NCBI GenBank assembly: GCA_002104895.1
Contig: MCFG01000238.1
Coordinates: forward strand, 45,313 to 109,312
Source of the DNA: Anaeromyces robustus
Lineage: Eukaryota; Neocallimastigomycota; Neocallimastigomycetes; Neocallimastigales; Neocallimastigaceae
Direction of reading: 5' to 3'
DNA length: 64,000 nt
Shown piece by piece: positions 8,153-63,966 of this stretch (the stretch's first letter is position 1; each line of letters opens with the position of its first letter). The position numbers and the translations under genes are program-made. Below the pieces are notes generated by a model. It had not been told where the DNA came from, did not search any database, and saw nothing but the letters and a program-made list of their open reading frames with translations.

Positions 8153-9426
8153 TTAGTTCTTCTTTTCAACATCCTTCTTAAGAACACCCATGAAAGCATC
8201 CTTTTCTTCAGCAGTTTGGAAGCGACCATGTCCGAATTTGGAGGCAGTATCGATGAACTTAAGGTTAATTGGTTCAGTAGAAGCACGGCTGGCGTTAGTA
8301 AGAACTGACTTACGAAGGGTAATAACTCTCTTCTTAACACCTGGGCAAGAACCCTTGATCATAACGAAATCTTCGTTAACAATACCGTAGTGTGGGAAAC
8401 CACCCATTGGAGTAATCTTCTTTTCAGTAATATCGAATTCAGTAGAAGCACTCTTAGCATCAGAACCGTTGGCAATACGGTAAATCTTCTTGTTCATTTC
8501 GGTACGGTGGTGGTAACCATCTTGACCAGAACGAGCAACAGAGTACATAACGTGGGATGGATGCCATGGACCAATACAAGCAACCTTACGAAGACCACGG
8601 TGAGTCTTACGTGGAAGTCTAGTAGTACCCCAACGGTGAGTAACACCTTCGTAACCATGACCCTTAGTAACAGCAATGGTATCAATAACTTCACCTTCAG
8701 CAAAGACAGACTTAATATCAATAGTCTTTTCGAAGTTGGCCTTAGCAAAATCAACCTTATCAGCAATAGAACCACCATTTAATTGGATTTCCATAATATG
8801 AGCCTTCTTTTGACCAATGTTAACCTTACGGATTTGGGTGTGGGCAAGAACACGAACAACGGTACAGTATTTCTTAATTCTTTCTAATTCTCTTTCAATT
8901 GGCTTAGCAGCTTCGGCGTACTTCTTGGCGTATTTAGTGAAAGCCTTCTTCTTTGAGTGGTACCAGTTCTTGTAGAAACGACGTTTGACTTCATCGGAAA
9001 GATGTTCAGACCAGACAGTGGTTAAACTACGAAGACCACGTGGGGTTTCAATGTAACCAACAACACCAACAATAACCATTGGTGGAGTTTCAATGATGGT
9101 AACGGCTTCAACGACTTCTTCAGTCTTGTTTAATTTAGAACCTGGACGTTCAATATCACGAACAACGTGAGTCATACCAGCCTTGTAACCAAGGAAAGCA
9201 GTAAGGTGAACAGATTTCTTAGAATCATCCTTTGGGAAAGTCTTAACCTTACCTCTGTGGCGGGCAGCACGCTTACGTGGTAAGAAACCAAGGGAACCGT
9301 GACGTGGACACTCGTACTTACGATGAGACTAAAAATATATTTTAAAAAATTATATATTAATATTTCAATCCATTAATTATTAAAATCATTATTATTAAAT
9401 CATTATTAATTTCAATACTCTACCAT
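8153..9426 (-). CDS. RPL3: 60S ribosomal protein uL3 (L3)
   Basis: Complement of 8153-9328 joined to 9424-9426, 392 residues, close to the usual fungal length of about 387. uL3 is a core large-subunit protein that reaches the peptidyl-transferase centre. The N-terminus is the typical basic stretch ([20 protein letters not shown]), and the C-terminal half carries family blocks such as GGFPHYG and KFGHGRFQT. The reading frame runs upstream of the internal Met at 9175 to an acceptor at 9329. The nearest sensible start is a lone ATG at 9424-9426 followed directly by GTAGAG, so the first coding exon is only the start codon. Codon choice (AAG, GTT, ACC, GCC, CGT) and higher G+C differ sharply from neighbouring genes, as expected for a very highly expressed gene. 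CCAAT boxes lie just upstream. Confidence 0.96.
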
Positions 9427-15840: not shown

Positions 15841-16548
15841 TAATTTATATGGCTCCTTTTTAGTAATAATATTATAACTATAAAGTTCTAATAAACATAT
15901 TATGATATTATAAAAATTATAATATTATATAATTATAAAAATATATTAATAATTACGAAATGCAGAGCATATCTGTAAAATATTAATACTAATGTTATTA
16001 TAATTATCTATAAAACGTCAATTTCAATTATTTAAAGAAAAAAATTAAATAATGAAAAACAAAATAATTAAAATTTTTTTTTTTTTACTTATTTATTATA
16101 ATTCTTTTGTTAAAAAAATTTGTTTATATTTATTATAGTATTCTATTTTTTTATTATTTTTTAATCAGTTAAGATAGTTACACTAAAACTTTATTTAATA
16201 ACTTTAAATGAATTATTTACAATTATATTTTTTAAAATTTACTTTTTGTATATAAATAATACAATTATATTTAACTTCGACATTTTAATTATTTTGTATA
16301 TAAATTCAATTATAAATAAAAATAGCTATAATTTATTTAATATTTAATATTATAATGTTCAATATTAAATATATTATAATATATATAATAAATATAGAAT
16401 AAAAAAAATCTTCATTTATATAATATTTTTGTTATTCTTATTCTCTTTACAAATATCAAAAAATACTTATACTATATTTTAATAATATAAAATAATTATA
16501 AATGATTTCTTTATTGAAATCATCTTGATAGTTAAAATGATAAATTAT

Positions 16549-17027
<479 letters not shown>

Positions 17028-17208
17028 ATTCCAAATTATATATATATTTGATAAAAACCATTGATAATGAATTAAAATAAAATAAATTATAAATACACTA
17101 TATATATAATATATAAATGATAGTCCTTTTTTTTTTTTCTTTTGACAATGTATAATAAATATTGTATTAATTAAATATAAATATCATTATTACATTTATA
17201 CGTTGTTA

Positions 17209-20200
17209 TTATATTGTATTATTAATAGAATATAAACTTCGATTAGATTTATTAATTAAAATTTTGATCTTTCCATTTTGAAATTTAACAACTTTAGAGC
17301 ATTCATTATAAATATTAATATAATCTTCAGTTAATATCTCCATATTATCGTTCTTTGTCTTATTTAACATTCTTATACCAGTTTTTTTATTTTTTGGTCT
17401 TGTTTCGAAATAAGTCATTGGATCATCACCATGTTTTGTTAATATATAAAAATATTTATCCCAATAAAAAAATACTGATATTAAAAATAATGAAATATTA
17501 TTAAAAATAAAATCTCCTCTTAATCTTGCTTTTTTATTTTTTGGGAATACCAAAAATGTAATAACCTTTAAATATAAAAAACGAAAATACCAATATTAAT
17601 TTTATATTAATTATATATATATTATTATTATATATCATTATTAATTCATAATATTATATAATATAATTAATTATAATAAAAATATAATTAAACTATTATT
17701 ACATTTATTAAAGGTCCAAAAAAAATCCAAATAACTATTGTATATGTTATATAATAACAACATTTATATATGAATATATATCCTCCAATACTTTTTCCTT
17801 TTATAAATATAATTATCATAAAAATTATCTCTATTAAATTGACAAATAATTCTATTCTATGAATTAAGCATTGATAATACCATTCATGATTTTCATCTTG
17901 AACAAAACTATCTTCATCTGATAGTTTATTATAGAAAAAAAGGACTATAATAGTAAATAATATAATAATAGGATAAGCAACTAATAATTCAATATTAAGT
18001 GAACATAATTTAGTTAACATTTTATTAAAATCCTTAATAGTATATTCAGATTTTATGGTAGAATTGTTTTTTGCAATATAAGAAATTGATTCATTATGAT
18101 TATTACTGTTATTACTGTTACTGCTAATATTGCCGCTTTGATTAAATAAATCATTACTATTTTTAGCACTATTAATAATATTATTTGTATTACCAGGATA
18201 AGTTGTTTTTGTGGAAGGTAAATATGTTATTGTATTATATAAATTCGATATAAATTTTATTTTGTCATTTTTAATAGTTGAAACACCTAATTCACATCCA
18301 TAGAATATATATAGATAGTATATAAATAGTATTAATATAGTACCAGATATTCTAAATACAAAAAATAATGAAGATGTAATAAAAGTGTTTGAAACCATAA
18401 AATAATATGAAAAATAAATTAATATTAAACCAACTGACACAAAGATATTCTTTAACAATCCTGTATCTTTTATTATTCTTTTCTTTTTATTATAATAAAG
18501 AAATGCAATGTTAAGAATATGAATAAATATTAAAAGATCAGCCCAAACTTTAACAACTTTTGTTAAGTCGCTATATAATATGTAATTAAATTATTAGTAT
18601 GAAATAAATAATAAATAGTTAAATTATTAGAAAATATTAATAAAATAAATAATACATAATTAATAATAATAAATGTTATTTTAAAATTTTAATAATAGAA
18701 TATAAATCCATTTATGTAAAATAAATATTACAAAAAATTATTTAAATAAATAATAAAAAATTAATTACCTGAAATTAACATATATTCTTTCACTACAATT
18801 AACACCCGTGTATCCAGGATAACATTGACATTTATTATACTTTCTACTATTAACATTTTTAATACCTCCAGATGAACATATTGCTGTTACCTTGACAGGA
18901 CAACTATCATAACAAATTGGTACTTCGCATGAAAGTAAACCATTTCTGGAATACATTTCAATTTCTTGATCATTACAATTAGTAATTGCTATATCATATT
19001 CCTCTCCTTGTATAATTGTATTATAATTACTTTCAATTTCAAATTTTAATATATAACTTGATGGAATAGCTAAAATTTTTATATTATTTAATTTACATTC
19101 ACCATACAAAAATCTACATGTATTACCATAAATATAATAATTTAATTTTCTATTATTATACAAAACAGCTTTAATAGAAATTGAATTAAAAAAATTTGAT
19201 TTATCTTCCAAAATAGAATCCTGTTCATCATAAAGATAAAAAGAAAATGATAAATAATTCCCTGAACTCATAGTTAATGATGTTTCTTGATATTCACTTT
19301 TAAGTTTAGCATACGCTGGTAACGATGATATATTATTTCCATATGATAAAGCTGTATTATTCTTAAAATATAAACTTTCAGATGGTATTAAACATTTTTT
19401 AATATTATTTGGTGTAAATAAAGCACCACCTGCAACATTTGCTATATTATTTAAAAAATTAACATTCATAACCTCAGCCAAATATAATTCATTAAACTCT
19501 GAATAAATAGCACCTCCAAACTTTTCCGCTATATTACCTCGAAAAGTAACATTATGCATAGTGATATTACTATAATACAATTCAGGATTATATTTCTTTG
19601 AAAAATAAATAGCTCCTCCATTTGCACCTTTATTATTATTAAATTCAGAATTTTCTATTCGTATCTTTATATTATTGACATTTTCAAAACATCTATTGGA
19701 TATTAAATTTATATTATAATATTGTATTAATTATTTTTATCATATTTTATTATATTTTATTATATTTTATATATATTAGATTAAAATAATTCTATTAAAT
19801 TATGATAGTAATAATAATAATTTTAAATTTTTACAGTGCACCACCATTATTTAAATTTTCATTACTATTAAACTGAGAATTTTGAATATTAATATCAAAA
19901 TTATTTTCCATATAAATACTACCACATTGAGTATTATGAACATTATAATTATTACTAAATGTAGAATTTTTTATAGTCATTTTAGACTAATAAATATATG
20001 ATAAATATAATAAATATGTAATAAAATAAAATAAAATAAATAATATATAATATAATAAAACATAAAAATAAAAAGTTAAAATATATATATTAAATATATT
20101 AAATAAAGTAATACACATAATAAATAATTATCATACTAAATATATAATATAAAAATAATATATATATATTTATAAAGTAATAAATTATCAAAATTAGCTT

Positions 20201-21508
20201 ATATATAATAATTATATCTTACATTATTAGCAATATTTTCAATTAGTGATCCATATGAATGGCTATTCATAATTGTAATATTTTTAAAATCAACTCTATT
20301 TGAATAATCACCTTTAATTTTAATAATTGGATTATTTGTACGACAATTATTGATATATGCATTAATAATATTTAAACGAGTATTTGGATTGGTTTCAGAA
20401 TCAAAATATAATAAAGTTGCATCTTTAATATCTCCATTTCCTTGAATATTATCAACTTCTAGATTTTCAAATTTAAAATTCTTTCTCATTGCATATAAAA
20501 TAGGTTTTGAACTTGTAGTAATATTTTTAAATTTTATATTTTTAAACTTATAATTTGCTTCCCCACCAATTAAACTGTTAGTTTTAAATCTAAAATAAAA
20601 TATAAAAAAATAATATATATACATAATTATTTAATCAAGTAATAATACTAATAATAATAAACAAAAAAAAAAAAAAAAAATACAGTACTATAATGTAATA
20701 TATATAAAGTTATGATATATTACTTAATATTTTCAAATTTACTATTTTTAACAATTAAACTTGATGAACGATCGTTTGTAAAATCAAGAAGAGGAATATC
20801 CTTATTAGTTTCATAATTTATAACACTTAATCTATTTACAACTAACTTTGCTCCCACAAGTTCAAAAATTGTATCAGTATCTAATAAAATATAAAAAACA
20901 AATATTAAAAAAAATTAAATTAATACAATCTAATATATCTCAATTATATCTTAATAATTAAAATAGAAAAATAATGATAATCAATATTTTTAATATTGAT
21001 ATATGTTAATATATTTAAATTTATAATAACTATTACTTTCAAATGTATTATTATCAAATTGATATACATCAGAATTTAATTCAGCATCAATAGAATTCAC
21101 ATGAATCACAGATTTGGAAAAACAATTTTTAAAATGATTATTTTTCATACTATATTAATAAATAAATAAATAAATAAATAAATATAAATACAATAATTAA
21201 AAATGATAATTTCATGTATAAAATAATAATATATAAATAATATATATTTACTGAAAAGATGTTCCATCAAGGTTTATTAAATTTAATCCATTCTCTACTG
21301 TAAAATTATAGAAAGAAGAATTTGTAATTGATAATTCAGAAAAAGGAGTTCCTTCTAAAAGACCATTGTTAAAATATTTAGATCCAAGATTATCTTTAAA
21401 ATCTTTAAAACTACCTTTTATTTATTTATTTGTTCATTTATTTATTTATTATAAATATATATTGTAATTACAAAACAATAAGAATAATTTATTTATTTAT
21501 TTATTTCT

Positions 21509-21587
<79 letters not shown>

Positions 21588-21964
21588 TTAATTTATTTTT
21601 CTTCTTTTTTATCTTTTTTAATTTATTTTTATTTTTATTATTATGTTCTTAATTTTTTTTTTTTATTATTTTATAGATTTATCATTTAATCATTTAATTT
21701 ATTTTAATTTTTATTTTTGTTTTGATTTATATTTTTATATGTATACTTACAGTTATTATATTTGAAAGAACCATTACATAAATATGCTATCCCTCCACTG
21801 TTAGTAAATTTACAATTATTAAATTGAAAATTACTACACTTTGCTATTTCAGGATTAACTAAATTACTGCTATTTATATAATTACTATTCATTGCTACAA
21901 ATAAAATACCCCCTGTATTATCACTAAAATAATAATAAAATAAAAATTAAAATAATAAATATAT

Positions 21965-22016
<52 letters not shown>

Positions 22017-22916
22017 TTATACTGATTATAATTAATAATTAATATTAATATTTATAGACATATATTATCATACTCAAAGTAACAATTATTAAAAACATAT
22101 TGTGGCTCACTCTCATTTGAAGTAATACAATTAAATAAATTCATTATAACATTTCTTGCTTTAAGAAATTTACAATCTTCAAAATATAATTGATAACTGT
22201 CAGTCAATGGTGTTATATAAAATACATATAATAAAGATGGGTAATTAAGAAAATTTTTAAAAGTAATATTCTTAAATTTAATATAAGGTTTATCTGTAAG
22301 TCCATTTCCAATATAAAAATTAATAAACCATGTATAAGGATTCAAATTACTAAGGTCAATTGTTGTTGATTTTTCACTAAAAAAGGTAATATTTTTAAAT
22401 GCATATATCGTTACAGGAAATGATAAGTGTTCTTCTATTAATTCTCCTGAGTAATAATCCTCTTTAAAATTTATAACTAATTCAGATCCTGACAATGTAT
22501 TATTATACAATATTTCTATGAAAGAAGAAAAGTTCTTTTTTGTTATATCTATTTTAATAATACTTTCATTTTGCCTTTTTTTACGATTTTTTCGTAGTTG
22601 TTCCTGGTAAAATTTTTCTTTATCATAATAATAAGATGAATATGTTTCATTTAACTTTTTGAAAAGCAAATTGTTTTCTGTTTTAATCAATTCAGAGTAA
22701 TATGAAAATTGTTCTTTTGTTTCTTTTGTTCCATTATTATACTCTTTTATTATTATATATTTAATATATTGGTTTATTACATTATTAAAATAAATTATAT
22801 ATATACATATATAAATTTATATAGATATTAATATATTAATAATTACTTAACGAATAGCATAATGGAATTATTATCGAATATTGTAATAATATAAAAATAA
22901 ATATGTTATATATCAT
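17209..22916 (-). CDS. Secreted beta-helix / EGF-like / seven-helix receptor, class C GPCR-like
   Basis: Eleven exons join in phase to 1,340 residues: 17209-17565, 17694-18570, 18769-19692, 19835-19986, 20223-20589, 20724-20880, 21037-21149, 21252-21414, 21751-21923, 22074-22743, 22847-22916. A signal peptide (MIYNIFIFILLQYSIIIPLC) opens the protein. About 900 residues of short repeats follow (FKNITF, FNNCKF, GGAIYS, NNIANVAGGALF), the pattern of a right-handed parallel beta-helix. Next is one EGF-like unit ending CQCYPGYTGVNCSE. The last third has seven hydrophobic helices, with an Asn/Ser-rich insert of about 100 residues between helices 3 and 4. A Trp/Cys loop (ENHEWYYQCL) lies before helix 5, and FPK follows helix 7, like the PK motif of class C receptors. 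The likely role is sensing of an extracellular polymer, perhaps plant cell wall; the ligand is inference. Confidence 0.75.
21492..21594. repeat. (TTTA)n microsatellite in receptor intron
   Basis: Occupies much of the intron between exons 21252-21414 and 21751-21923 of the receptor gene. Confidence 0.9.
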
Positions 22917-27138: not shown

Positions 27139-30100
27139 ATGAATGAGAAAAGAATGACAATGAATAATTATAGGAATGAAATTGAAAATTCTTTTGCTGC
27201 CAATTTTTGGGTATTTATTTATATAAATATTTATCTTATTATTATTTATAATTATTTATTTATTATTTTATTATCTATAAATATATCTTATAGTTATTTA
27301 TTAATATTATTGTTATTTATAATTTATATATTTAAAGGGTAAAGGCGATAAGGGCTTAGAAGTATTGTTAAATCATATGAGAAGAACAAAAGTAGCATGT
27401 GATAATTTAAATAAAGTTTTAAAAGGAAGAGCAGAAATTGAAGAAAATTATGGTAAACAATTAGTGGAATTATCAAAAAATTTAATTGATCAAGATGAAA
27501 TAGTATCAATGAGAGATTCTATGGAAACTCTTAGATTAGAAATTGAAGCTACTGGGCAATCTAGAATTGATTTAGCTTTAGATATTAAAGATCAAATAAA
27601 TGCATTATTGGATGAATTTTCTTCAAATCAAGAAAAAATTATTAATAATTATAAGACGGTTATGGAACGTCATTTATATCTTAAAAATTCTCAGACTCAA
27701 GAAGTATTAAAAGTAAATGAAAAATATCAAAAAAAATGTGAAGCAGCAGTATTAATTTCAAAAAAATTAAATGATTGCTTACCAGAAGAAGTACAGTATT
27801 ATAAATCTTTATTAAGACAATCTTTGATAGAAGCTAAAGAAATTGATAAAGAATATATAATGGTGGTAAATCGTTTACATCAAATTTATAGAAAATGGCA
27901 ACAGGAATGGACAAGAAAATGTGAAAATTATCAAAAATTTGAAGAAGAAAGAATACATTTCTTATTTGACCAAATGTGGAATTATGCTAATATGTTTTCA
28001 ACGGTTTGTGTTGCTGATGATGAAGGATGTGAAAAATTACGTGTTCAATTAGAAAAATGTGACAGTAAAAATGATATAATTAATTATATTAGAGAACACA
28101 AAACTGGTTCAATTATATCAGAAGCACCAAAATATATTAATTATTATTCTAATATTCAATATTTAGAAGATGTTGTAGATTTAAATGGTGATTCTGAAAA
28201 ACCTCAATTTTCAATTCCACATACTCAACGTAATGAATCAAGAGGAAAAGTACCATCTCAACAATTTCCACCACAAATGCAACAACAACATTTCCAATCA
28301 CAAATGCAACCACAAATGCAACCTCAAATGCAACCTCAAATGCAACCTCAAATGCAACAATCACATTTTCAACAACATCATTTCCAACCACAACAACCAC
28401 AACAACCACAACAGCCACAACCACAACAACAGCAACCACAACAACCACAACAAACTCAACAATCTAATCAACCTCAACAACCTCAACAACCTCAACAAAC
28501 TAATCAAACTCAACAATATGTACAATCACAACAAACAGTCCGTAAATCAAGTTATCCAAATCAATATAATAATAGTAATGTACAAAATATACCAATGACT
28601 TCACAACCTTCAATGAATCAGTATTATGATCCAATACATTCAAATCAAAATCCAGATGTAAATCACATACAAAATAGTACCCAAATTCCTGGTCAACAAC
28701 AATTACAAACAAAACCAATGAATAATCAAAATTCTATTAATCAACAAGTATCTAAACAATTGTCTATTAATTCAAAACAATCTGAGGAGGAAAATAAAGA
28801 AAGTCCAAAAAGAGTTAGTGGATCTCCGTTAAAGAAGAGATTTGGAAAGAAACGTACTTCACTTTATGTTACAAATAAGTCTCCAAAAACCTCAGAAAAT
28901 GAATTAGATAAAAATGATGATAAATTTAAGTCAGATATTGACAATGAATTAAAAACAGATGGTAAAAACTTAAAGGTTAATGATAACGATAATAAAGAGA
29001 AAAATGTTGATCCAAATGTTAGTACAATTAGTGTTGTACCATTAATACCATCTGTTGAAGAAGAAGAAAAAACAATCAATGATTTAACTGCTCAATCAAT
29101 ATTAGATGGAATTAATCAAGATTCACAAGAAAATACACCAATTCCAAATGATGAGCCATCACATGCATTACCACCTGCACCAATAGGAATAAATACTTCA
29201 ATGTCGATTATAAGTCCAATTCCATTAGATAATAGTGAACATGATTTGGAAGAAGATAAGACTTCATTAACTAATAATATTGAATATTTAGAATCTGAAA
29301 AAGGAGAGGTAATTCAAAGTGAAAAAATATTAATTGGAAATGATGATAAAAATAACAAAAGTCCACAAATAGATGAAGTTAATAGTAATACTGAAAATAC
29401 TATGGTTCCTGATAATGATGTAATAGAAAGTATGGAAGAAGAAACTGTAGAAAATAAATTACAAGAAGTATTCGAAGAAAATATGGCTGGTGAAGTTAAA
29501 TCAAATAATATTAATATTAGTAATGAATCAAATGTATTAAAGGCTGAGGTTAAAAATATTGAAGATATAGAAAATATTGAAGAAAAGATAAAGGAAGATA
29601 TTAAAATGTTAAAAGCTGACATTGGTGAAGTATATGATGATGATGATCATGTGGATGTTGTTAAAGAAAATAATGAAAGTAATAAAGATGAGCCTTTAGT
29701 AGCAGAGATTAAAGATGTTGATGATTTACAAGCCTATGAGAATAATGAATTAAAAACTACTGTAAAAGATGTTAATGATATTATTAAATCTGAAGATTAT
29801 GATGATTTAGATATAAAACCAATTCCAACTTTTAAAGAATTAGGTTTTAGAGATAGTTATGGTAATTATTCAACTACAAGTACTGATGATGTAGAATCAA
29901 TTAAAATTATTGAAGAAAGTTCTATTGAAATTACCGATAACGAAGGTGGTTCATTTAATCCTGAAAATTATAATAATGATCGTGAAAGTTATAATTCACA
30001 AACATATGAAAATAATATTGTTGTCATTGATGATAATGATATTATTTCAGTAAATACACCAAATACGCCAAATTCTCAAACTAATTTACGTAATTCATTT

Positions 30101-32238
30101 GATAATACTATTCCAGTTAATAGTAATATTCCAAGATTAGAACCTGAAGAAGAAGAAGAAGATGTTTATAAGGGATATAATGAAGAAAAAGAAGAGAATA
30201 AAGAAATTGAAAATCAAAATGTTGAAGTAGTACAAGAAAATTATAATAATATAATACAAAATCAAAATACTCAACATTATGATACACAAATTTTTGGTCA
30301 TATAAATAATAATATGAATGTTAATGAAGGAATTATTCCAGTTAGAAGTTCAAGTAATGAAATTCAAAAAGAAATTGATTTACAAAAAGAACAACTTGAA
30401 GCTGAAAATTATAAAAATTCAAAAAGTTATGTCGAGGATCAAATAAAATCCATAAAAGGAACTGAACCTCCAACTCATTCTCGTAAACATTCTCATTCAA
30501 AGAGAAAGTCTTATAAAAAAGATGGAACTATAATAAGAATGGAAAGAAGAGAAAGTTTATTTGGTGTTACAAAAGATACCTATGATCAAATGCAACAACA
30601 AATACAGCAAACATCACAAGAACAAATTCCTAAAGCAAAAAGAGTTTCTTCAATTAGAAGTTTAAAAACAGGAGAAGCAAATGTAGCAGAAGCAGCTATA
30701 GCTGCAGTTAATAATAAAATGATGAGTACTAAACAAGAAAATAGTAATATTAGTAATAATAGTCATGTAAATAATAGTATGAATGAACGTACTCGTATAA
30801 ATGAACAAGATAAAGATAATAATTTAGATAAAAAACCAGATTCTCCAACATTAGTGTATGGACTTCATTTTATACCACCAATGTTACGTAATCAAATGGT
30901 ACAAAATCAAGAATTACAATTAGGTCATAAATCTTCCTCAAGTAATAGTTCATTGGAAAATCAAAATATAATGAATTATCATTCAAATGTAAATAGTCAA
31001 ATGCAATCTGCTTTAAATAAATATCCCTCTTCAATATCTTCAAATAATTCTAATCAATCTGCTAAGATTTCAAAAATTAGTTCTATTAGCTCTTTAAACA
31101 ATAGTAATCGCCGTCCATCCCAAGCTTCGTTAAGTTCAAATAAATCGGCTAATCGTACACCAAAGTTTAGTGAAAACGTTATGGGATCACCTTCTCTTAA
31201 TTCTAATTCAAAAAATAATAAGAATCAACTCTATCAATATATGAATGGTGGAGCTGGCTCTACCAATAATACAAATAATACAGGTTCTCCACATTCTATG
31301 ACAAAAGAACTCTCTTATTCTTCTCAACAACAACAATACACACCACAACAACAATATACACCACAACAACAATATACACCACAACAACAGTATACACCAC
31401 AACAACAATATACACCACAACAACAATATACACCACAACAACATACTCCAAAGCAACAATATGCTTCACAACAACATACTCCAAAACAACAATATGCTTC
31501 ACAACAACATACTCCAAAACAACAATATGCTTCACAGCAATATACTCCAAAACAGCAACATGTTTCACAACAACAATATATTCCAGTACAACAAACCCAA
31601 CAACAACAATATGTTCAATCTCAATCTAATCAATCACAACAAATTTCACAACAAATGAAACAACAATTACAACAACAATTAATGCCACAATATCAAGGGC
31701 AACCAACCACACCATCTCAACAATATATCGAAATAAATAATATTCCAAAATCACCAGCTATTGAATTAGGAACTACATATAATCCATATGATTTAAGAGT
31801 TAAAAAACCTGTACTTTTTAGAGGTAAAAATAATTAATATTTTAATTATTTATTATATTTTTTTTTTTTAATCAAACAAACAAAAAAAAAAAATATTATT
31901 ATATATTAGTTTTTTAATATTGATTTATTATTAGTGTTATTAATATCTTTTTTAAATATTGATATAATTATTAATTTAATTATTAATTATTATTAATTAT
32001 TATTATTATTATTGTTTTTAATTTTTAATTTTTACTTTTATTAGTTAATACATTATATAATTATGAAGCTGTTTCATTTGAAGAAGTATCATTTACTGCT
32101 AATTCTGTTTTACCAATTTTAGCTGTACAAGAAGATGGATGGTGGGAAACAGAAGTTAATGAGATGAAAGCTGATGGTACTATTTGTCGTAGAAGAGGAC
32201 TTATTCCTTCAAATTTTGTTGAAGTTATTAATGAATAA
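27139..32238 (+). CDS. F-BAR and SH3 domain scaffold, Cdc15/Hof1/Imp2-like
   Basis: Three exons (27139-27210, 27338-31823, 32045-32238) join in phase to 1,583 residues. The first exon ends in ENSFAANFW, and the second opens GKGDKGLEVLLNHMRRTKVA. These are the start of an FCH/F-BAR domain that continues as helices to about residue 290. A disordered Gln/Asn/Ser/acidic linker of over 1,200 residues follows. It includes a QMQP array near 28270-28370 and a QQQYTP array near 31324-31440. A C-terminal SH3 domain is encoded by the last exon (LYNYEAVSFEEVSF, then DGWWETE, then RRRGLIPSNFVEV). F-BAR domains bind and bend PI(4,5)P2 membranes. This architecture with a long linker is that of fungal Cdc15/Hof1/Imp2 proteins, which link the contractile actomyosin ring to the membrane at cytokinesis. 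Family membership is solid; the exact orthologue is not. Confidence 0.88.
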
Positions 32239-41447: not shown

Positions 41448-44400
41448 ATGGATGATTATAATCAACAATATATGGATGGTAAAATAATCAAAAAAAAAAA
41501 TAAATAAAATAAAAATAATAAAATAAAATAAAATAATTAAATAAACAAATAAAATATATATATATATTTTGTGTATGATATATTAAAACTTTAATTTTAT
41601 TTTTCTTTTTTTTCCTTTAAATTAATTTTTGGTGGTGTAATTTTTATTGTGAATTAAAATATTTAAAGAGGATTATTATAATGAAGAAGAAGATCTTTTA
41701 GTCCAAGAAGATTTTTGGACTGTAATTACAGCTTTTTTTCAGGAAAAAGGTCTTGTAAGACAACAACTTGATTCATTTGATGAATTCATCCAAAATAGTA
41801 TGCAAGAAATTGTTGAAGAAAATGCACAATTAGTATTGCAAACAACAGCTCAACATACAGGACAAGGAAATGATGTCACAGTAAATTTCTAAAATTTGAA
41901 AGAAATAATTTTTGAATAAATAAATTTAAATGAATTTTTTATTGTATAAAAATTTGAAATGAAATTTATAAAAAAGTTATTAGATTAATAATAATATATA
42001 CTTATATACATATATTTTTATATATAAATTAATGATTTTATAAATATAATTATTAATACTGATAATCTTTTATTAAATATGAAATATCAAAGAAACAATA
42101 TATTATAAAATTTGGTCAAATTTACTTAAGTAAACCAACTTTTACTGAACCTGATGGTAATAATCATCCATTATTTCCACAAGAAACACGTTTAAGAAAT
42201 TTAACGTAAGGAAAAAATATATTCTAAAATAAATATTTTATATAAATATTTTTATTAATATTTTTTAATGCTTTATTTTATTTTTTTTTATCAATGTAAA
42301 TTATTAAATTAATAACAACAACAACAACAATAATAATAATAATAATAAAGATATGCTGCTCCTTTATATGTTGCTATGAAAAAAACAGTAAGAGTAGCAG
42401 ATCCTGAAGATCCTAAAAATCAAGGAAATTCATTTGCAGAAATGAATTGGGAAGATGAGGCAGAAGATCCAGTAGTTAAAGCATTTATTGGACAAGTACC
42501 TATTATGTTAAAATCAAGTTATTGTATATTAAGTGGTTTAAGAGATCAAGATTTACATGAAGTTGGTGAATGTCCATATGATCAAGTAAGAGATTTTTTT
42601 TATTATTAAATTTTGTTATATATAGTAATAAATGAAATGTCATCAATCAGTAATAATTAATAATGGATTTGGAAGAAGGATTTCAAAAATAAGGTTGGGA
42701 TTTTTAAAAATTTAAATATATTTTCTTTGACAATATATAATTTTATTTTATAGGGTGGTTATTTTGTAATTAATGGTTCAGAAAAAGTATTAATTGCACA
42801 AGAAAGAATGGCGTCAAATATTATATATGTATTTGCAAAATCACCTCCATCACCATATTCTTATACAGCAGAAATTCGAAGTGCTGTAGAAACTGGTTCA
42901 AGACATGCTAGTACATTATATATAAAGATGCTTGCTAAAGCATCATCAAGAGCCAATAGCGAAGTATTTTAGCTTTTTTTTATATCTTTTATATTTTTCA
43001 TTTTTAATAATAAAAATATTAAATATTAAATTAATATGTTTTTTTTTTTTTATAAGATTGTTGGTCAAAGTATAAAAGCAACTTTACCATATGTAAGACA
43101 AGATATTCCTGTTGTAATTGTATTCCGTGCTTTAGGTATTGTACCTGATAAAGATATTTTAGATCATATCTGTTATGATTTCAATGATACCCAAATGTTA
43201 GAAATGTTAAAACCATGTATAGAAGATGCTTTTGTTATTCAAGATAAAGAAATCGCACTTGATTATATCGGAAAAAGAGGTACTACAGTTGGTGTTACTA
43301 AAGAAAGACGTATAAGGTATATATTGGCTTATTCTTGCTTATTATTTATAATATATTATATAAAATAATTAATATTTTTAATAGTAATAATATTAGTATT
43401 TAATGAGGTAAATCAATTAAAATATATGTTATTAATGATTTATATTACACTAATTTTAACATTAAATTTACAATAAAGATACGCTGCTGAAATTCTACAA
43501 AAAGAATTATTACCTCATATCGGTACAAGAGCACACACTGAAACTAAAAAAGCATATTTCTTTGGTTATATGATTCATCGTTTATTACTTACAGCTTTAG
43601 AACGTAGAGAATGTGATGATAGAGATCACTTTGGTAAAAAGCGTTTAGATCTTGCAGGTCCATTACTTGGTTCATTATTCCGTATGTTATTTAGAAAATT
43701 AACAAAAGATGTTAGTAAAACTCTTCAAAAATGTATAGATAGAAATAAAGATTTTAATTTACATACTGCAGTTAGATCAAATACTATTAGTGATGGTTTG
43801 AAATATTCTTTAGCCACAGGTAACTGGGGTGCACAATCCAAATTTATGCAAAGTCGTGCTGGTGTAAGTCAAGTATTGAATCGTTATACATTTGCTTCAA
43901 CTTTAAGTCACTTAAGACGTTTAAATACCCCAATTGGTCGTGATGGTAAATTAGCTAAACCACGTCAATTGCATAATACCCACTGGGGTATGGTTTGTCC
44001 AGCTGAAACACCAGAAGGTCAAGCTTGTGGTCTTGTTAAGAATTTAGCTTTAATGTCATATGTATCTGTTGGTTCATCATCTGCTCCAATTATTGAATTT
44101 TTAGATGAATGGACAATGGAAAATATGGAAGAAGTTCATGTTAGTCATATTTTAGAGGCTACTAAAATTTTTGTTAATGGTGTATGGGTTGGTATTCACC
44201 GTGATCCAGATCATTTAGTTAAAACGTTAAGAGATTTAAGAAGAAGTCAAAATGTTAATGCTGAAATTAGTATTGTTAGAGATATTAGAGAAAAAGAATT
44301 AAGAATTTATACCGATGCTGGACGTATTTGTAGACCATTGTTTATCGTCGAAAATCAAAAACTTAAGTTAAAGAAATCCCATATAGCTAGAATTCAACAA

Positions 44401-44512
44401 AGGGTATGATAATATACATAATTTATATAGTAGTATAAATTAACATAAATTTTTATTATTTTTTTTTTTTTTTATTGACATATTTATATGAAAATTATTG
44501 AATGTTTGTGAA

Positions 44513-44556
<44 letters not shown>

Positions 44557-46310
44557 ATTTTTAATATATATGGTATTAAATGATATTTTATTAAATATAT
44601 ATTATTGCTATATTATATTAATATTATACTATATTATATTATATATTATATATTATTATTTTATTTTAGAATGAAACTGGCGAAGGCTGGGGATGGGATG
44701 ATTTAGTTGAAAATGGTATTATTGAATTTATTGATGCTGAAGAAGAAGAAACTATTTTAATTTGTATGTCACATGAAGATCTTGATACAAAGGAAAGTGA
44801 ATTAAGTTTACAAGATTACGGTACAAGTACACGTTTGAAATCAAGAAGTGTTTATTCTAGAAACTGGACTCACTGTGAAATTCATCCAAGTATGATTCTT
44901 GGTATTTGTGCTAGTATTATTCCATTCCCTGATCATAATCAATCTCCACGTAATACATATCAATCAGCTATGGGTAAACAAGCTATGGGTATTTATTTAA
45001 CAAACTTCCAATTAAGAATGGATACAATGGCAAATATTTTATATTATCCACAAAAGCCATTAGTTACCACTCGTGCTATGGAACATCTTCGTTTCCGTGA
45101 TTTACCTGCAGGACAAAATGCTATTGTAGCTATTGCATGTTATAGTGGTTATAATCAAGAAGATTCTATTATTATGAATCAGAGTTCAATTGATAGAGGT
45201 CTCTTTAGAAGTTTATTCTATCGTAGTTATATGGATCAAGAAAAGAAAGTTGGTATGTTTGATGTTGAAAACTTTGAAAAGCCAACTCGTGATTTCTGTT
45301 TACGTGTTAGACATGGTACTTATGAAAAATTAGAAGATGATGGTCTTATCGCTCCAGGTGTTCGTGTAAGTGGTGATGATATTATTATTGGTAAAACAGT
45401 TCCACTTAGTAAAGATTCTCAAGAATTAGGTCAACGTACTGAACATCACACTAAGCGTGATGCTTCAACACCTCTTAGAAGTACAGAAACTGGTATTGTT
45501 GATCGTGTATTAGTTACTAATAATCAAGATGGTATGAAATTCGTTAAAGTACGTGTTCGTAGTACGAGAGTCCCACAAATGGGTGATAAGTTTGCTAGTA
45601 GACACGGTCAAAAGGGTACTGTCGGTATGACATATCGTACTGAAGATATGCCATTTACTGTTGAAGGTATCACACCAGATATTATTATTAATCCACACGC
45701 TATCCCATCTCGTATGACTATTGGTCACTTGGTTGAATGTTTACTTGGTAAGGTTTCAACCCTTACTGGTGATGAAGGTGATGCTACACCATTTACTGAT
45801 GTTACAGTAGAAGCCATTTCTAAACTTTTAAGAGAAAATGGCTATCAATCTCGTGGTTTCGAAGTTATGTTTAATGGTCATACTGGTAAAAAACTTCAAG
45901 CTCAAATCTTCCTTGGTCCAACTTATTACCAACGTTTAAAGCATATGGTAGATGATAAGATTCACAGTCGTGCTCGTGGTCCAGTACAAATTCTTACTCG
46001 TCAACCAGTAGAAGGTAGATCTCGTGATGGTGGTCTTCGTTTCGGTGAAATGGAAAAGGATTGTATGATTAGTCATGGTGCTGCACAATTCTTAAAAGAA
46101 CGTCTTTTCGATACAAGTGATGCTTATCGTGTTCACGTATGTGATTTATGTGGTTTAATGTGTATTGCTAATTTAAAGAAGAATATATTTGAATGTCGTG
46201 GTTGTAAGAATAAAACAAGAATTAGTCAAGTTTATTTACCATATGCTTGTAAGTTATTATTCCAAGAACTTATGTCTATGAATATTGCTCCAAGAATGAT
46301 GGTTGGTTAA
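41448..46310 (+). CDS. RPB2: RNA polymerase II second-largest subunit
   Basis: Eight exons (41448-41478, 41669-41880, 42093-42205, 42351-42585, 42754-42963, 43057-43316, 43479-44403, 44670-46310) join in phase to 1,208 residues, against about 1,224 in yeast. Rpb2 forms one half of the Pol II cleft and contributes to the active site. Hallmarks in order are [84 protein letters not shown] (the hybrid-binding region), [36 protein letters not shown] and a C-terminal zinc clamp (CDLCGLMC, then CRGCKN). Short introns cluster in the 5' third, while the last two exons carry more than 70% of the coding sequence. The isoform is Pol II rather than I or III, judged from these blocks and the IAPRMM end. 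Confidence 0.97.
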
Positions 46311-62580: not shown

Positions 62581-62904
62581 GGATTGAAATTACAATTCCT
62601 TTTAATCTTTGTAAGATTATTAACTAAATAACTTAGAATTAATGACTTAATAATCTAATTATTATTTAAACTTTTCTTAATTAATTATTAATAAAAAATA
62701 TTATTATAAAACTTAATTATTTTAAAAAAGTGTTCTTTTAATTAATTAATTTATTGTGTATTAATAAATAAATTTGCCTATTAATTATATATTTGTTTAA
62801 TTAGTTATTTTGTTATTAATTAAACATCTTGACCTGACCATTATTAAACCAAAACTACCCTCATTTAACAATAATCTTACCTGCTGTTTTCTGGTTACCT
62901 TAAG

Positions 62905-63966
62905 ATGTTTGGAAATTCCTATAGAGCTACCACTCCTGCACCTGAAGTTCCCATGGCTGAAGAAGTTGAACAACTTAGGCAAGATGCTACCAGAACTGCT
63001 GCTGAAATTATCGATGGTGTGCAAGCAAACTTTGTTTCAACTAATGATTTTACCCAATATTATGAACAACTAGAATCTAGGCTAAATAATATTTATTCTG
63101 CTATAGAAAATATTAATCAAAGATTAAATACTGAAAATACTGCGCCACAAGGATATGAAAGATTTGAAACTCCTAGACCATTACTTGGTAATCAAGATTC
63201 TGATGATAGTTCTACCGACACAAACTTCGATTTAGATAGAGATGTAATTATGAAAAGTAAATTTTCTGCTCCTTTAAATCAAGTTCCAGAACCAGGATTT
63301 TTCTCAGGAAAAACTTCGGAAACTGAGTTATTTTGCCAACTTTGTGAAGATACATTCAGAACTACGCCACATAAATATTTACCAGAAGAAACAAAAATTA
63401 ATTTTGTCAAATCACGTTTAAGAGATTCTGCAAGAAACTGGTACTTAACCAAGTATAGAGGCAATATTAAACCAGGAACAATGTTTGAATTATTAGCTGG
63501 TTTAAAAGCTGCTTTTTCAAATGTCGCAAGCTATAAATTAGCTAAAATTAAATTAATTTCCTTAAAACAACATTATGGAAAAATAAATGAGTATATAGAT
63601 GAATTCAGGAGTTATACTCGTTTATTTAACTGTGAAGAAGAACCATTAGCTTTAATATTTTATAATGGATTACACCCTAAATATCAAGAACAAGTTCAAA
63701 AGTTAGATGTATTTCCAGCCACATTAGAAGATATTATTACTACGTGTATACTATTTGAAAACTCTATTAGTGTAAAAAATTCCATTAGACAATCTAATAG
63801 CAATAATAAAAATAACAAGAAAAGAAATTCCAGCCACCATTCTAATTACAAAAATAATTACAAAAATTATAATAATAATTATCACAAAAATTATTCTAAT
63901 AATCAGAATAATTACAACAAAAATTCTGATGTTAGTAAAGCCACGAAAATTACTACAAAAAATTAA
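62905..63966 (+). CDS. Retrotransposon Gag polyprotein
   Basis: 353 residues. The N-terminal part (to about 110) is a charged helical segment. From about 127 the sequence PEPGFFSGKTSETELFCQLC starts a Retrotrans_gag-type capsid domain, continuing through FVKSRLRDSARNWYL, FELLAGLKAAFSN, KINEYIDEFRSYTRLF and EPLALIFYNGLHPKYQEQV. The C-terminus is a basic Asn/Lys/Tyr-rich tail with no CCHC zinc knuckle, so RNA binding may depend on basic residues, or the knuckle may lie after a frameshift. The frame ends at TAA (63964-63966) two codons after a slippery heptamer. Pol is not in the window. Codon use is less A/T-biased than the surrounding intergenic DNA. Confidence 0.85.
   Translation: MFGNSYRATTPAPEVPMAEEVEQLRQDATRTAAEIIDGVQANFVSTNDFTQYYEQLESRLNNIYSAIENINQRLNTENTAPQGYERFETPRPLLGNQDSDDSSTDTNFDLDRDVIMKSKFSAPLNQVPEPGFFSGKTSETELFCQLCEDTFRTTPHKYLPEETKINFVKSRLRDSARNWYLTKYRGNIKPGTMFELLAGLKAAFSNVASYKLAKIKLISLKQHYGKINEYIDEFRSYTRLFNCEEEPLALIFYNGLHPKYQEQVQKLDVFPATLEDIITTCILFENSISVKNSIRQSNSNNKNNKKRNSSHHSNYKNNYKNYNNNYHKNYSNNQNNYNKNSDVSKATKITTKN
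63957..63963 (+). promoter_or_regulatory. Candidate -1 ribosomal frameshift site
   Basis: A-AAA-AAT in gag frame fits the X-XXY-YYZ slippery pattern, directly before the gag stop. The -1 frame is open from here to the window end (KKLKNEHHLESMNV). No downstream pseudoknot can be seen because the window stops. Confidence 0.45.

Follow-up and report, generated by a model that had tools for sequence, protein, structure and literature searches.

Class C receptors with unusual ectodomains have been described in anaerobic gut fungi. Seppala et al. (2016; PMC5168858) counted 51, 24 and 32 of them in three gut fungi; about 30% have a pectin lyase fold, to which parallel β-helix repeats are sometimes added and, in a few cases, EGF modules; in the available parts of that paper, the ANF domain is found in none of them and carbohydrate binding is suggested. 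Here we describe a gene in a 64,000-nucleotide stretch of Anaeromyces robustus DNA (GCA_002104895.1, contig MCFG01000238.1, positions 45,313 to 109,312; hereafter the window, whose own numbering is used below). It encodes a 1337-residue protein which is probably a gut-fungal cell-surface receptor, with a putative Pmp-type rod, an EGF module and a class C-like seven-transmembrane (7TM) domain, working as a contact sensor. Both its signalling and its ligand we infer. A β-helix-type ectodomain, an EGF module and then seven helices are predicted in one gene, the arrangement of the surveyed receptors: as far as the available text goes, these likewise have a β-helix-type ectodomain instead of ANF, an EGF module in a few members, seven C-terminal helices, no nine-cysteine domain and an ectodomain of 200–1600 residues. 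The protein is a diverged member of this published receptor kind, and its architecture, EGF module included, is not new; since the design was described in gut fungi in 2016, it is an unusual receptor but a known kind of sensor. An earlier note on this DNA had proposed that a β-helix replaces the Venus flytrap; the replacement stands by sequence only, and it is already in print for gut fungi in the same survey, at least in the portion available. The survey, by the same portion, chose its receptors by InterPro/BLAST annotation, whereas the 1337-residue protein fails Pfam 7tm_3; it also differs from those receptors in lacking the cysteine of the third transmembrane (TM) helix and a Cys/His motif in the tail, and in belonging to a diverged clade with two close paralogues (C48 and C35).

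Three other systems share parts of this layout, according to partial texts of the respective sources. The metazoan class C receptors mGlyR (GPR158) and GPR179 carry an EGF-like module in the ectodomain, which there consists of Cache plus EGF, instead of the β-helix predicted here (PMC12716839). The start of the TM part of the family to which our protein belongs gives weak profile matches to GPR158 (E 2.2) and GABA-B1 (E 0.016). Methanogen adhesin-like proteins (PMC11532034) and Chlamydia Pmp proteins (PF02415) have the same FxxN...GGAIY repeats, but the likeness is limited to the repeats; β-helix domains are reported for the adhesin-like proteins, and β-helices are described as glycan binders (PMC11532034). 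Finally, the Cthe_2159 proteins of anaerobic fungi (PMC6712302) are polysaccharide-binding β-helix proteins from the same fungal group, but their family, PF14262, is not listed for the 1337-residue protein at E ≤ 1, and no 7TM fusion is described for them in the portion of that source available.

The gene is real and has a single intact reading. Its limits, 17209-22916, were given exactly by the earlier note, and the protein is read through 11 exons on the minus strand; the ten introns are all GT-AG, their phases are consistent and the frame is continuous with no internal stop, bearing out the phase-consistent splicing seen before. Guanine plus cytosine content is 21.7% in exons vs 6.9% in introns, and the exon model from the EGF module to the end was reproduced from the DNA by a custom splice-aware protein aligner. 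The features are as follows.

22916-17209, minus strand: whole gene, 11 exons, 1337 residues
22916-22847, 22743-22074, 21923-21751, 21414-21252, 21149-21037, 20880-20724, 20589-20223, 19986-19835, 19692-18769, 18570-17703 and 17565-17209, minus strand: exons 1-11, the last with the stop codon
22851..22916, minus strand: hydrophobic leader, residues 1-22; by hydropathy only, a probable signal peptide
19413..22411, minus strand: β-helix-type repeat region, residues ~135-715, in exons 2-9, by rung-like motifs and Chlam_PMP
18918..19412, minus strand: β-rich linker, residues 716-880, conserved in part among the members and assigned to no named family
18795..18914, minus strand: EGF-like module with six cysteines, residues 882-921, by family alignment and PDB profile matches
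18495..18557, minus strand: TM1, residues 935-955, by hydropathy
18384..18455, minus strand: TM2, residues 969-992, by hydropathy
18303..18368, minus strand: TM3, residues 998-1019, directly preceded by Ser where class C has its cysteine
17997..18302, minus strand: second intracellular loop, residues 1020-1121, long and Asn/Ser-rich, between class C TM3 and TM4
17925..17996, minus strand: TM4, residues 1122-1145, by hydropathy
17796..17861, minus strand: TM5, residues 1167-1188, by hydropathy
17548..17780, minus strand: TM6, residues 1194-1225, split by the phase-0 intron 17702-17566
17539..17547, minus strand: FPK closing TM6, residues 1226-1228, distinct from the class C motif
17437..17517, minus strand: TM7, residues ~1236-1262, with WDK at 1254-1256, by hydropathy and spacing
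17209..17436, minus strand: cytoplasmic tail and stop, residues 1263-1337, by gene model and alignment

The paralogue search proposed by the earlier note yielded about twenty other loci of the same layout in this genome (70.2 Mb, 769 contigs). The TM part found 31 stretches at E ≤ 0.01, two being the gene itself and the others lying on 17 loci; the exon-9 ectodomain found 41 at E ≤ 0.001, one being the gene itself and the others on 22 loci, which contain all 17 of the former. Splice-aware models, built for every other locus but C228 (21 of 22), supply the TM part for C334, C45a and C45b, so that ectodomain and TM part occur together at 20 of the 22; C377 has the EGF end only, in the sequence examined. 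The phase-2 intron between the EGF module and TM1 is present in 20 of the 21 paralogous models, and the phase-0 intron in TM6 in 19. The models of C180 and C507 each contain one in-frame stop plus odd extra introns, and these loci may be broken or mis-modelled. Two family members form a tandem pair on contig C31 (57593-59219 and 63621-65343). A family alignment (A1) was made of 17 of 22 sequences, leaving out C507 and C180 (one stop each), the fragment C377, C45a and C45b. The closest relatives are C48 and C35 (48% and 47% identity), and these form with the 1337-residue protein a clade, called focal below, with 100/100 support in the unrooted tree. Over the EGF-to-end part, the nonsynonymous and synonymous rates (dN/dS, NG86) are 0.39/1.01 with C35 and 0.38/1.03 with C48, with dS near saturation; they are consistent with purifying selection on this part.

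The protein begins with a hydrophobic leader, whose hydropathy reaches 2.16 over residues 5-23; this agrees, by hydropathy only, with the signal peptide of the earlier note. The β-helix repeats, in turn, had been given as about 900 residues long; the region spans ~580 residues (~135-715), and residues 716-880 are a different, β-rich region. In residues 85-770 start 18 rung-like motifs, where 1000 shuffles gave 3.0 on average and never more than 9, a comparison that overstates significance because the pattern was drawn up by eye. The motifs run from residue 139 to ~703, plus a single stray at 818. The hydrophobic autocorrelation of the ectodomain is weak, with |z|>2 at two lags only (29, z 3.1; 4, z -2.9). 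Chlam_PMP (PF02415) scores 20.6 bits against the whole protein, just at the cut-off, and 38.2 bits against exon 9 alone, with a peak at residues 669-687, and it matches 10 of 10 members of an ectodomain alignment (A3: the window gene and 9 of 14 other loci from the ectodomain search), whose repeats have the form FxxN...GGAIY. The putative β-helix-type region resembles those of Pmp and adhesin-like proteins. At E ≤ 1, where negatives are limited in that HMMER filters drop most matches above ~0.1, no pectate-lyase, Cthe_2159 (PF14262) or carbohydrate-binding family is listed for the protein, nor ANF or NCD3G (Venus flytrap, nine-cysteine domain), nor the GAIN/GPS domain of adhesion G-protein-coupled receptors (GPCRs; class B2). 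Rhombotarget A, a candidate PDB relative of A3 (E 0.0071), was set aside as too weak to lean on. The single EGF-like module is confirmed by its six cysteines, each of them conserved without exception in the 17 aligned members, and the family profile matches EGF-type chains and ligands in the PDB (best E 2.8e-4).

The seven hydrophobic helices noted before are also found, with best 19-residue hydropathy values of 1.39-2.71; all 17 aligned members have seven such segments, the weakest across the 16 paralogues reaching 0.99. The class C-like nature claimed for them holds for the family: 7tm_3 is matched at E ≤ 0.1 by 7 of the 17 members scanned singly (best 9.5e-8), and the family profile matches one made from 20 of this genome's class C receptors (A2; 20 of 30 class C loci retrieved) with E 0.0002 when the long loop is included and E 5.3e-6 (score 46.3) when it is left out. 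Scrambled controls, one reversed and ten block-shuffled, gave E 0.023-0.56 and a score of at most 22.3. The local profile alignment pairs TM1-TM6 with class C, and the Asn/Ser-rich loop falls between TM3 and TM4. Predicted homology to class C over TM1-TM6 is therefore supported at the level of the family profile, not for the protein alone. A genome scan, in which 150 of 187 candidates were scored, gave 127 stretches matching 7tm_3, 113 of them over the cut-off; two of the paralogous loci lie within these stretches, C74 (over the cut-off) and C81 (below). Next to the β-helix/EGF family, the set of class C receptors in this genome is very large. A single-sequence search for PDB relatives of the TM part returned one match, rejected as spurious. 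The cytoplasmic tail of 13 of the 17 members, by its three cysteine columns in A1, contains the motif C-x-x-H-x-S-x-x-C-x-C, missing in the 1337-residue protein, C48, C35 and C379; a role in metal binding or docking is conceivable.

The end of the domain had to be reassigned. The FPK motif (1226-1228), placed by the earlier note after helix 7, ends helix 6, and helix 7 corresponds to ~1236-1262. In class C rows of A2, a conserved TM6 position and the residue closing the 7tm_3 match are 54-56 residues apart, a spacing taken from the 7 of 20 rows that reach that column, four of which end in PK. Counted from the same TM6 anchor in the 1337-residue protein, the K of WDK lies 55 residues away and that of FPK 27. 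The TM6-to-WDK spacing, searched by pattern in 22 family sequences, is 55 in 15 and 56 in one; the pattern missed or hit elsewhere in the other six. The family motifs are GPLIN-x-ISY in TM6 and ICY...WDKIYYI in TM7, and at the FPK position the nearest two paralogues read FSN and FFD. FPK as the class C TM7 motif is ruled out by the spacing (27 vs 54-56) and by these paralogues. When a global profile alignment is forced, TM7 is gapped and the class C PK falls seven residues beyond WDK, well past FPK, and for this reason the exact equivalence of WDK with PK is weakened. The possibilities that the gene is broken or lacks a TM7 exon were also rejected, as in the 16 paralogues of A1 TM7 follows the same segment with no additional exon.

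Several observations weigh against a class C-like receptor with helix 7 as assigned here. The protein itself has no Pfam 7tm_3 match at E ≤ 1, and none of the 127 7tm_3 stretches from the scored candidates belongs to it. The TM3 cysteine, present in 14 of the 17 family members, is Ser, Tyr and Tyr in the focal clade, Ser being that of the 1337-residue protein; the usual disulphide between TM3 and the second extracellular loop is therefore impossible, although the loop cysteine is kept in 15 of 17 members, this one included. The stretch between TM6 and TM7, FPKNKKARLR, has a net charge of +5, vs -2 to +3 in the other 16 members, and as an outward-facing segment it contradicts the positive-inside rule, which counts against the helix-7 placement. 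The fold prediction suggested by the earlier note was run with AlphaFold2 on single exons as single sequences, and the models are too poor to show the fold or the bundle: exon 9 (β-helix/EGF) gave a mean predicted local distance difference test (pLDDT) of 30.3 and a predicted template modelling score (pTM) of 0.22, and exon 10 (TM1-6) gave 50.1 and 0.30. The low-confidence exon-10 model has six membrane helices, with the exon-10 part of TM6 as one continuous helix. Given the corrected helix assignment and a clade missed by domain searches, domain-based receptor counts may be too low.

In the contact sensor that we favour, the long repeat rod would stand off the membrane and hold an extended or surface-bound ligand, which could be a plant-wall polymer or another microbe's coat. 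Binding would be relayed through the short EGF stalk, running straight into TM1, to the helices, and these would pass the signal to a heterotrimeric G protein; a family of α-subunits is encoded in the genome (30 exon-level matches). Such a relay is what leads us to propose a contact sensor. If it signals, the protein would belong to a large group of orphan receptors that could let gut fungi perceive fibre or their neighbours.

Other explanations bear on the ligand or on the domain itself. The protein could sense polymeric plant carbohydrate (pectin, xylan, cellulose) by binding it along the β-helix, an idea that we hold possible but rather unlikely. The habitat of a plant-fibre degrader speaks for it: CBM_10, the fungal dockerin, is over the cut-off in 150 of 150 scored candidates, of 683 in the genome, and is listed among the domains unique to anaerobic gut fungi in the available text of PMC6712302, in line with a host from this group. 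The same proposal is made in the portion of PMC5168858 at hand, and it would fit the glycan binding described for β-helices in the corresponding portion of PMC11532034. However, neither a lyase nor a Cthe_2159 or carbohydrate-binding family is listed at the threshold given above (a distant match of fold is conceivable), and the repeats are Pmp-like; polysaccharide sensing is possible, being neither supported nor excluded by the sequence. A receptor for microbial partners, reading contact with rumen archaea or bacteria, appears unlikely, even though the Pmp-type repeat also occurs in methanogen adhesin-like proteins. A degenerate motif from A3 found 73 stretches and 19 confirmed loci in a prokaryote collection, 11 of the 19 from Methanobacteriaceae (eight Methanobrevibacter, two Methanosphaera, one Methanoflexus) and the other eight bacterial, including Ruminococcaceae, Endomicrobium and two Termititenax. 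The best match, over residues 568-717, is a Methanobrevibacter locus (E 4.5e-5 in a rerun at full collection size, without low-complexity filter) whose frame, in our reading, is laid out like an adhesin-like protein; no EGF-7TM fusion was seen in it. According to the available text of PMC8665504, class C receptor genes go up when the fungus is grown together with a methanogen on Avicel and xylan, and the authors speculate that sugar binding or physical contact is involved. Against this, only the repeats are alike, with nothing in the 19 loci matching the linker (716-880), and a common repeat need not mean a common ligand. The scan rests on one short motif with no control motif and Pmp repeats may be common elsewhere, so the prokaryotic resemblance is a lead and not a result; no link between gut-fungal receptors and methanogen adhesins was found in the available parts of the literature on these.

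We regard as improbable, and as the more speculative version of this idea, that a fungal clade uses a Pmp/adhesin-like rod, with the repeat that rumen methanogens and bacteria bear on their surfaces, on a class C-like 7TM domain lacking the TM3-ECL2 disulphide, as a contact receptor for syntrophic archaea or rumen microbes, with an ectodomain perhaps laterally acquired. It is quite unlikely that the protein is an adhesin anchored in the membrane by a 7TM domain that has lost its signalling: the TM3 cysteine lost in the focal clade, the missing tail motif and the lack of a 7tm_3 match would fit, but the seven hydrophobic segments are retained, the rates are consistent with purifying selection, and the GPLIN element of TM6 and the WDK element of TM7 are kept. 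A gene-model artefact joining an ectodomain gene to a helix gene is hardly credible with a frame continuous over ten introns, and two separate genes are ruled out by the EGF/TM1 intron that recurs across the paralogous models.

Directly downstream of the receptor gene, a long TTA/TAA trinucleotide tract (16456-17097) is of low complexity and open in three frames. Elsewhere in the window, on the plus strand, a 1504-residue open frame (27323-31837) contains an F-BAR (FCH) domain and a long Gln-rich C-terminal part, and a retrotransposon gag frame lies at 62875-63966 (Retrotrans_gag, E 6.1e-8). The frame at 8153-9328, on the minus strand, reads like ribosomal protein L3, and that at 43477-46310, on the plus strand, like the second subunit of RNA polymerase II.

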